Shown here piece after piece: positions 901 through 8,896 of a DNA stretch of 9,041 nucleotides; the stretch's first letter is position 1, and every line of letters starts with the position of its first letter. The DNA lies in assembly GCA_003023105.1 (NCBI GenBank), contig PXSZ01000005.1, positions 10,075-19,115 of the forward strand, read 5' to 3'. The notes below the pieces were generated by a model that did no database searches, was not told the DNA's origin, and saw only the letters and a program-made list of their open reading frames with translations. The position numbers and the translations under genes are program-made. This stretch comes from Bacteroidetes bacterium QH_10_64_37. GTDB lineage: Bacteria; Bacteroidota; Rhodothermia; Rhodothermales; Salinibacteraceae.

Positions 901-4764
<3,864 letters not shown>

Positions 4765-6396: not shown

Positions 6397-7110
6397 CTAC
6401 CGCACTTCGCTGAGGACGGAGCTGCGGTCAACCGGTATCGGGGGCCCCATCGTGGCCGACAGCGTAATTGAGCGCAGGTAGAGGCCGCTCGCGGAGGCCG
6501 GCCGGAGACGCACCACTTCCCGGAGGAGCGCACGGGCATTCTCGTAAAGCTCCTCGGGGGAGAAGGAGGCCTTTCCGATGGCCGTGTGCAGATTTCCGCT
6601 GCTATCGACGCGAAACTCAATTTTCCCCGCCTTGATCTCCTCAATCGCGTCGGCCAACTCCATCGTCACCGTTCCGCTCTTCGGGTTCGGCATCAGGCCG
6701 CGCGGGCCGAGAATGCGCCCAAGCTGCCCCACCTGTCCCATCACGTCCGGCGTCGCAATGGCGACGTCGAAGTCGAGCCAGTTTTCCTCCTGGATGCGCT
6801 CGATGTATTCGTCGAGTCCCACGTAGTCGGCACCGGCGTCCTCGGCCTCCTGCTGCTTGCCTTCGCTGGCCAGGACGAGCACGGTCACCTCGCGGCCCGT
6901 GCCGTTGGGGAGGGTAATCGACCCGCGCACCATCTGATCGGCGTGCTGCGGATTCACTCCGAGTCGGAGATCCAAATCGATCGATTCGTCAAAGTTGGCG
7001 GTCGCGGTTTCCGTAGCCAGTTCCGCGGCCTCTCGGAGCCTCACAGGCTCGTCCTGCTCGTCGACGAGCTCGTGGGCCGCCCGATATCGTTTTCCTTCAA
7101 TCTTGGCCAT
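6397..7110 (-). CDS. rplA: Ribosomal protein uL1
   Basis: L1 stalk protein of the large subunit, 237 residues (family about 230). It binds 23S rRNA helices 76-78, helps move tRNA out of the E site, and in many bacteria and archaea represses its own mRNA. The start [12 protein letters not shown] is conserved. Domain I contains [20 protein letters not shown] (61-80), and the inserted domain II contains the L1 signature [16 protein letters not shown] (131-146). [20 protein letters not shown] follows, and [16 protein letters not shown] near the C-terminus completes domain I. An acidic N-terminal half ([10 protein letters not shown]) fits a halophile. It starts 126 bases after the rplK stop, and a 45-nt structured element ends 15 bases before its start codon. 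That element resembles the one before rplK, which suggests each gene carries its own control site. Confidence 0.98.
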
Positions 7111-7125: not shown

Positions 7126-7170
7126 TGCGGTGCGAACGTTCTCCCGATGGCGGTCGGGACAACTCCCGCA
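7126..7170 (-). promoter_or_regulatory. 45-nt structured RNA element before rplA (possible L1 binding site, copy 2)
   Basis: In the transcript the outer stem is TGCGG (7170-7166) with CCGCA (7130-7126). Inside are GTT/AAC (7163-7161 with 7140-7138) and the hairpin CCCGA/TCGGG (7158-7154 with 7147-7143) with a 6-base loop. A 7-base asymmetric loop (GTTCGCA) lies on the 3' side only. The shared segments GCGGGAGT, ATCGGGAG and ACGTT recur in the element before rplK with the same overall fold and length. It ends 15 bases before the rplA start. The L1 link is inference: L1 is known to bind a helix with an asymmetric internal loop in its own mRNA. Confidence 0.55.
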
Positions 7171-7236
7171 TGAGCAATGACTGCGATGGCGATCTTCAAA
7201 ACGACGAGCCCCAATGCCCGAACCGCCGGGAGTCTA

Positions 7237-7677
7237 CTATTCGTGGGCCGGTTTCCCTTCGACGGTGATGCCCATCGACCGGGCCGTTCCGGCCACCATG
7301 CTCGCGCCCTTCTCCACGGTGTGCGCATTCAAGTCCTGAAGCTTCTGCTCAGCGATGTCCAGGCAGTCGTCCCACGTGACCGTACCGGCATCTTCGCGGA
7401 GCGGATCCCCGGCTGCCGTCTCGATGTCGGCCTTCTGTTTCAGAAGCACCGACGCAGGCGGGCTCTTGACGATGAAGTCGAAGGAACGGTCGGCGTAGAC
7501 CGTAATTTCGACCGGCAGGAGCGTGCCCATCCGGTCCTCGGTCCGGGAATTGAACGCCTTGCAGAACTCCATGATGTTGACCCCATGCTGGCCGAGGGCC
7601 GGCCCGATGGGCGGGGCGGGATTGGCCTGCCCCCCTTTGATTTGAAGCTTGATGGTTTGTTCGACCGGTGCTGCCAT
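7237..7677 (-). CDS. rplK: Ribosomal protein uL11
   Basis: Protein of the GTPase-associated centre of the large subunit, 146 residues, normal length. It binds 23S rRNA helices 43-44 with its C-terminal domain and touches elongation factors and stringent factor with the N-terminal domain. The Pro-rich N-terminal signature is clear: [20 protein letters not shown] (9-28), then [15 protein letters not shown] (29-43). The C-terminal RNA-binding domain ends with [12 protein letters not shown], the usual family ending. Start [10 protein letters not shown] is the family start, with no Shine-Dalgarno sequence ahead. It lies 118 bases after nusG; that gap holds a weak terminator-like hairpin and, immediately before the start codon, a 45-nt structured element. 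In E. coli this is where L1 represses the L11-L1 message, so the position matches. Confidence 0.98.
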
Positions 7678-7686
7678 ACGTACGAA

Positions 7687-7731
7687 GGCGGTTCAAACGT
7701 CTCCCGATCACTATCGGGGCAGACTCCCGCC
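7687..7731 (-). promoter_or_regulatory. 45-nt structured RNA element before rplK (possible L1 binding site, copy 1)
   Basis: In the transcript the outer stem is GGCGG (7731-7727) with CCGCC (7691-7687). Inside are GTCT/AGAC (7724-7721 with 7702-7699) and the hairpin CCCGAT-AGTG-ATCGGG (7718-7703), with a 7-base asymmetric loop GTTTGAA on the 3' side. Compared with the copy before rplA, the outer pair G-C is replaced by T-A and the GTCT/AGAC pairing by GTT/AAC, so pairing is kept while bases differ. It ends nine bases before the rplK start codon, close enough to block initiation when bound. Assignment to L1 is by position and known biology, not by a motif search. Confidence 0.6.
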
Positions 7732-8651: not shown

Positions 8652-8728
8652 TGCGTGCAGGTTGCGAACAACAGCGCCGGTTTCATAGGGGCACCGTATA
8701 CGAAAGCCTTCGGTACCCTCCAGTGCGG

Positions 8729-8802
8729 CACGGACGGGAGGACTCGAACCCCCAACCGGCGGATTTGGAGTCCGCTGCTCTGCCAAATTGAGCTACGCCC
8801 GC
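8729..8802 (-). tRNA. trnW: tRNA-Trp (anticodon CCA)
   Basis: A complete 74-base cloverleaf. The acceptor stem is GCGGGCG with CGTCCGT (two G-U pairs, including G1-U72). The D stem is GCTC/GAGC. The anticodon stem GCGGA/TCCGC closes the loop CTCCAAA, whose CCA anticodon is at 8768-8766. The T stem is GGGGG/CCTCC with loop TTCGAGT. The discriminator base is G73, a known identity base for bacterial TrpRS. The 3' CCA is not encoded; CCG follows instead, so CCA must be added by nucleotidyltransferase. Its place between tuf and secE is a known conserved arrangement. Confidence 0.97.
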
Positions 8803-8807
8803 AGTTC

Positions 8808-8896
8808 GAATTGGGAGTTTGGAGTTCGGAGTGTGGAGTTTGGAATGGAGAGTTTGAAGTGCCCCAATCCGAACCCAAATTCCCAATTCCAAACTC
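8808..8896. repeat. Heptad tandem/inverted repeat element between tuf and tRNA-Trp
   Basis: On the plus strand, 7-bp units run in register from 8810 to 8858: ATTGGGA, GTTTGGA, GTTCGGA, GTGTGGA, GTTTGGA, then the degenerate ATGGAGA and GTTTGAA. From 8866 units of opposite sense follow (AATCCGA, ACCCAAA, TTCCCAA, TTCCAAA). The halves form a long imperfect inverted repeat: 8808-8830 pairs with 8868-8889 with one substitution and one gap, and GAGTTTGGAA at 8836-8845 is a perfect match to 8887-8896. It fills nearly all of the 97-base gap, ending three bases from the tuf stop and five from the tRNA 5' end. It is the same family as 816-896. In RNA it could be a processing hairpin between tuf and the tRNA. 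Confidence 0.75.

Follow-up and report, generated by a model that had tools for sequence, protein, structure and literature searches.

Why should an operon of ribosomal protein genes carry two similar hairpins, one shortly before the start codon of rplK and the other shortly before that of rplA? The question is raised by a stretch of 9,041 nucleotides (hereafter the window) from contig PXSZ01000005.1 of Bacteroidetes bacterium QH_10_64_37, in which the gene order around both hairpins is secE-nusG-rplK-rplA-rplJ-rplL-rpoB. Judged by its L1 protein, the window is Salinibacter-like: the closest relatives of that protein (loci L001-L008, 77-92% identity) come from Salinibacter and Salinivenus records and from Bacteroidetes MAGs, with 87% identity to Salinibacter altiplanensis and 92% to one MAG. 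We take the class of the window and its relatives to be Rhodothermia and the phylum to be Bacteroidota, following GTDB. The features concerned are:

7687..7731, minus strand: K copy, putative L1 operator before rplK (outer stem 7731-7727/7691-7687; unpaired GA 7726-7725; inner stem 7724-7721/7702-7699; 3' loop GTTTGAA 7698-7692)
7126..7170, minus strand: A copy, putative L1 operator before rplA (outer stem 7170-7166/7130-7126; unpaired GA 7165-7164; inner stem 7163-7161/7140-7138; 3' loop GTTCGCA 7137-7131)
7237..7677, minus strand: rplK, ORF for ribosomal protein L11 (Pfam PF03946 and PF00298), first gene proposed to be regulated
6397..7110, minus strand: rplA, ORF for ribosomal protein L1 (Pfam PF00687, 220.8 bits; solved L1 homologues), second gene proposed to be regulated and source of the proposed repressor

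The K copy (transcript 7731-7687) reads GGCGGGAGTCTGCCCCGATAGTGATCGGGAGACGTTTGAACCGCC and the A copy (transcript 7170-7126) reads TGCGGGAGTTGTCCCGACCGCCATCGGGAGAACGTTCGCACCGCA; the coordinates and letters given for them in the earlier note are exact, as are the gaps of 9 nt (K copy) and 15 nt (A copy) to the ATG of rplK and rplA, respectively. We propose, with a probability of about 0.9, that both elements are translational operators for L1 (uL1) in a circuit of autogenous repression, i.e. that L1 probably switches off its own production via both leaders. The interpretation of both elements as L1 leaders, already advanced in the earlier note, is supported by their position, covariation, confinement to this locus among the loci read, and likeness to known L1 leaders.

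The fold drawn for the two copies required some correction. It had been described with an internal loop on the 3' side only, but on the 5' side GA, facing these seven bases, is unpaired as well, and the outer stem of 5 bp, with its end pair changing from G-C to T-A, is reduced to a conserved stem of 4 bp, the end pair being unpaired in 22 of 35 sequences. Both copies are indeed 45 nt long, but this is a coincidence and not a shared trait: 101 copies collected from related leaders (see below) range from 27 to 58 nt between the ends of the 4-bp stem (43 nt for the window copies measured in the same way). Comparison upholds the fold for both copies, but energy does not do so for the A copy, which on its own favours another register by 2.8 kcal/mol; there (7126-7170) the 5' GCGGG may pair with the loop UUCGC instead of CCGC. 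The predicted fold of the A copy is based on comparison, not on energy. Only 26 of 51 K copies and 24 of 50 A copies have the L1-competent form as their minimum-energy structure, which counts against the L1-operator reading; in 51 of the 101 copies a fold other than the L1 form has the minimum energy. Among 5000 dinucleotide shuffles per leader, the core pattern, which was defined after both copies had been seen, occurred in 3 shuffled rplK and 6 shuffled rplA leaders. No Shine-Dalgarno-like sequence was found between either hairpin and its ATG in the window, and no T run follows the hairpins in its sequence. The Rfam 15 scan of the window (E<=10) reported seven matches, none of them at either element and only a tRNA above the cut-off.

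For the comparison with related leaders we compiled 226 loci: 145 from those genomes with L1 among 148 sampled from the phylum, 80 from a contig collection, and the window itself. All 18 leaders of the window and its eight nearest relatives (L001-L008) possess the element, with 14 invariant columns, among which are the second base of the unpaired GA and the loop's G, G and A, and with a distal hairpin that varies in sequence and length. Both copies are found in 22 of the 226 loci (the window, L001-L008, L085-L094, L103, L112 and L113), which were labelled Rhodothermia-like; L086 has the same two elements as L003 and represents the same genome. Among 52 distinct rplK/rplA leader pairs (74 loci), 49 contain both copies and 3 contain one. 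The three missing copies out of 104 possible ones (L268 and L271 before rplA, L269 before rplK) were not found, and no site was seen when these leaders were read; L268 and L271 (rplK-only) and L269 (rplA-only) seem to be natural one-operator variants within the class.

The core common to the copies comprises a 4-bp outer stem, GA or AA, an inner stem starting with G-C, a variable hairpin, and a 7-nt 3' loop GNNNGNA. The outer stem is GCGG/CCGC in 92 of the 101 copies, with changes from C-G to T-A in four, from G-C to T-A or A-T in four and from G-C to C-G in one; loop position 5 is G in 99, and the second inner pair is C-G in 57, T-A in 36 and T-G in 8. The 4-bp stem keeps an almost constant distance to the start codon (7-14 nt in 49 of 51 K copies, 12-17 nt in 49 of 50 A copies). 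Within one genome (49 pairs), the second inner pair has C in both copies in 23 cases, T in both in 18, C in K and T in A in 8, and the reverse in none; this match may be explained by shared ancestry. The variable loop bases of the K and A copies of one genome reveal a weak likeness (mean 1.94 of 4 vs 1.72 when shuffled, with 64 of 2000 shuffles as high), which shared ancestry could likewise account for. We considered and rejected a family-specific element: outside the window and Salinibacteraceae loci the strict pattern GAGT/ACG never detected both sites, and the inner stem of other families has C-G where this pattern asks for T-A. A scan that asked for three further inner pairs was also discarded, as it missed the window's own A copy and others, while a relaxed scan of the leaders gave a single surplus hit, evidently a false one, in each of L004 and L005.

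The two window copies differ in sequence with pairing preserved, in which the earlier note had seen compensatory changes, and the related rplK and rplA leaders show covariation, with a score above all 500 shuffles in each of three sets. For 35 distinct sequences the score is 0.373 vs 0.149 for shuffled alignments (0/500 as high), 90.5% of cells are paired and 6 of 9 pairs have changed on both sides; two of five measures were also reached by shuffles (pairs with both-side changes in 9/500, further pair types in 27/500). A set of 66 sequences that excludes the window and the loci treated as its closest relatives scores 0.309 vs 0.101 (0/500); here 98.9% of cells are paired, and 5 of 8 pairs have changed on both sides. 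For 58 sequences from genomes whose L1 is at most 69% identical to that of the window, the score is 0.239 vs 0.079 (0/500), slid registers scored at most 0.075, 98.5% of cells are paired and both-side changes occur in 5 of 8 core pairs. All these pairing percentages lean upward, because the rows were chosen by patterns that require the outer pairs.

Three covariance models were used. As model R1 includes the window's own copies, we draw no evidence from the scores it gives them. Model R2 still contained L261, L264 and L270 (L1 76-79% identical, as close as in L007 and L008) and others at 74%; we relied instead on model R3 (the 58 sequences, no locus with L1 more than 69% identical), although its results are weaker. 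In the window, R3 identified the K copy with 35.6 bits (E 1.3e-6) and the A copy with 25.3 bits (E 2.7e-4), the next match having 9.7 bits (E 0.94); R2 gave 36.0 and 26.4 bits. A search of related leaders with a covariance model had been suggested in the earlier note; R3 recovers the window copies, and 49 of the 52 leader pairs contain both. Applied to 59,854 bases that comprise the window, L001-L008 and the E. coli locus, R3 found 18 of 18 copies at E<=1, of which 15 scored above the sole other match (in L008, 14.6 bits). The K copy of L003 and both copies of L007 obtained only 14.1-14.5 bits, not above that other match, and this counts against the L1-operator reading. The E. coli rplK leader gave no match to R2 or R3 at E<=1.

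In the proposed circuit, L1 in excess over free 23S rRNA would bind the hairpins before rplK and rplA, both of which would mimic its 23S site; the bound protein would block access of the 30S subunit to the start codon 9-15 nt downstream, and new 23S rRNA would draw L1 off, so that translation resumes. Since there is no Shine-Dalgarno sequence between the hairpins and the ATG, direct occlusion of the 30S subunit would be the simplest route, and since the rplK-rplA spacer in the window is 126 nt long, one upstream site may not govern both genes by translational coupling, which would give each gene a reason for a site of its own. An alternative, which we consider rather unlikely, is that both hairpins are L1 operators but only one of them regulates in vivo, the other being weaker, buffering, or setting the L11:L1 ratio. 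It agrees with the lower scores of the A copy in models that exclude it (25.3 vs 35.6 and 26.4 vs 36.0 bits), with the preference of that copy for a competing fold and with the occurrence of a single site in 3 of the 52 leader pairs (two rplK-only, one rplA-only); however, a useless copy should decay, and both sites retain the same fixed bases in 49 of the 52 pairs.

Operators of L1 at both genes can be compared with known L1 sites. The E. coli rplK leader contains the stretch GGG-GA-GCCTC-TCA-GAGGC-GTTATTA-CCC, which we take to be the proven L1 site. Reading by eye indicates a likeness in architecture: an internal loop of 2 + 7 nt, an inner stem GCCUC/GAGGC and a loop GUUAUUA. E. coli differs in having one site only, with rplK and rplA 3 nt apart, an outer stem of 3 bp, and a site located farther from the start codon with GAGG between them. 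In the 23S rRNA genes of three relatives (not of the window's genome), the L1 stalk region reads GGCGGGAGGC...GGAGCC-N-TGAAATACCGC; the 5' strand of helix 76, GGCGGGAG, is identical to the K copy, and TGAA and CCGC are common on the 3' side, whereas the 3' loop of helices 76-78 has 12 nt vs 7 in the mRNA, with AUA between TGAA and CCGC, and the distal part is longer. The likeness of the elements to the 23S L1 site, as judged from these sequences, is only partial.

According to section 3.1 of a 2024 review (PMC10931766), known L1 sites have the form of an irregular stem-loop with an internal bulge and are located before rplK in Proteobacteria, before rplA in Actinobacteria and Cyanobacteria, and before both genes in some cases such as Firmicutes, as well as in T. 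thermophilus and T. maritima; the review refers to Fu et al. 2013 for the dual Firmicutes leaders. We read both sites in four Firmicutes loci (L010, L037, L062 and L070), where each gene is likewise preceded by one irregular stem-loop with an outer stem, GA or (in the L062 and L070 A sites) AA, an inner stem starting from G-C and a 7-nt 3' loop G.....A. The outer stem in these four loci is GUGG/CCAC, in contrast to the predominant GCGG/CCGC in the lineage of the window, and in L010, L037 and L062 the sites are followed by a Shine-Dalgarno stretch, which the window lacks. For T. thermophilus and T. maritima the likeness, a site before each gene of rplK-rplA, is taken from the review's description (PMC10931766, same part). 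The elements thus resemble the leaders of E. coli and Firmicutes in core architecture; by analogy with this family, L1 would repress translation by way of sites that mimic rRNA. Location within the secE-nusG-rplK-rplA operon would also suit hairpins that bind L11, NusG or the ribosome itself rather than L1, but we regard this as very improbable, since the E. coli rplK leader likewise has an unpaired GA and a loop that begins with G and ends with A, the 5' strand is common to 23S helix 76, the site of L1, and the second copy stands directly before the gene for L1.

Whether the element is confined to the L11-L1 operon was examined by genome searches. Among 195 genomes of the class, R1 matched 63 at E<=0.01 (two matches in 38, one in 25, more in none); the single-match genomes give a lower bound, because the search scores only part of the candidates. 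No R1 match was obtained in 132 of the 195 genomes (with strict filters and part of the candidates scored), which counts against the L1-operator reading. An example is G288, apparently the genome of L008, the second copy of which was found by direct search of the locus. A wider R1 search (more candidates, E<=10) revealed a second site in 13 of the 25 one-match genomes, on the same contig, about 500-590 nt away and at E<=0.12; hits elsewhere had E of at least 0.25. All 53 loci read (from 48 of the 63 matching genomes) contain both genes, and in each locus one or both of their leaders show the pattern. R2 matched 20 of 296 genomes of the phylum, and three of these, not matched earlier by R1, all have both sites before rplK and rplA. 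The earlier note had allowed that related leaders might lack the element or that it might recur at unrelated loci; conservation and covariation were found in the former, and matches read in place lie only before rplK or rplA. That the elements are a repeat of a generic intergenic kind, a fold due to chance, a terminator or a processing hairpin is a negligible alternative: GC-rich stem-loops are common in such genomes and the bare core pattern has two extra hits in the whole window, on the plus strand (antisense) in rpoB (921-987 and 3111-3169), but no genome has more than two matches at E<=0.01, every locus read is rplK/rplA, none of 500 shuffles and no slid register attains the covariation score, there is no T run, and a terminator scan gave 2 vs a shuffle mean of 1.9.

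The earlier note had regarded two L1 operators, one per gene, as an unusual layout and perhaps an undescribed leader form; this claim of novelty fails, since such layouts are already reported for Firmicutes, T. thermophilus and T. maritima in the part of the review cited above (PMC10931766), and four Firmicutes loci examined here have both sites. As far as could be checked, what is new is the lineage and the map across its phylum. In the open literature, the titles and abstract openings among the matches listed (one set being the best 10 of 267) contain no account of the site in this lineage, and a term search of the main text of a leader survey (PMC7247131) gave no mention of uL1, rplK or uL11; the lineage may already be within the alignments of Fu et al. 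2013. With this analysis the known L1 circuit with two sites gains a lineage, and a covariance model becomes available for an RNA absent from the Rfam 15 results for the window. As the phylum varies in operator number and gene spacing, the purpose of the second site becomes testable by comparison.

This variation was surveyed with a general scan (score >=6.5, a threshold reached by 9 K and 4 A leaders among 1130 shuffled ones of each kind), which is strict on loop length, so that its absences are no proof (one copy was missed in 3 of the 22 Rhodothermia-like loci). Among 132 other loci of the phylum draw it reported rplA-only sites in 9, rplK-only sites in 6 and neither in 117; among 72 other loci of the contig collection, both in 4, rplA-only in 12, rplK-only in 9 and neither in 47. 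Some of these hits look spurious (L056, L069, L071 and L148). A rule that a long spacer implies two sites was dropped as not clean: outside the dual group, no recognised site was found in 38 of 64 loci with a spacer of at least 60. In 15 relatives with spacers of 9-14 nt (L095-L102, L104-L107 and L109-L111) the scan remained below threshold at both genes, L095 and L099 also having been read by eye; L1 autoregulation may have been lost or rebuilt in them. We speculate, with considerable doubt, that operator number could form a natural series within the phylum, from two through a single one at rplA or at rplK to none, with two operators accompanying a long rplK-rplA spacer, and that in Salinibacter-type leaders the operator could occupy the place of the Shine-Dalgarno sequence, L1 and the 30S subunit competing for one hairpin with a second, L1-refusing register. 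Three distant members of the phylum (L222, L224 and L228) have a site before rplK only, with an outer stem UUGG/CCAA.

No promoter-like site was found in the window between 7000 and 9041. Between the stop codon of the upstream gene (about 8900) and tRNA-Trp (8727-8802) there is an imperfect inverted repeat (8807-8890) with overlapping arms of 18-24 nt and an RNA fold of -35.4 kcal/mol (z -7.2); the only Rfam matches there are to miRNAs, at chance level, and it is perhaps a terminator or a repeat.
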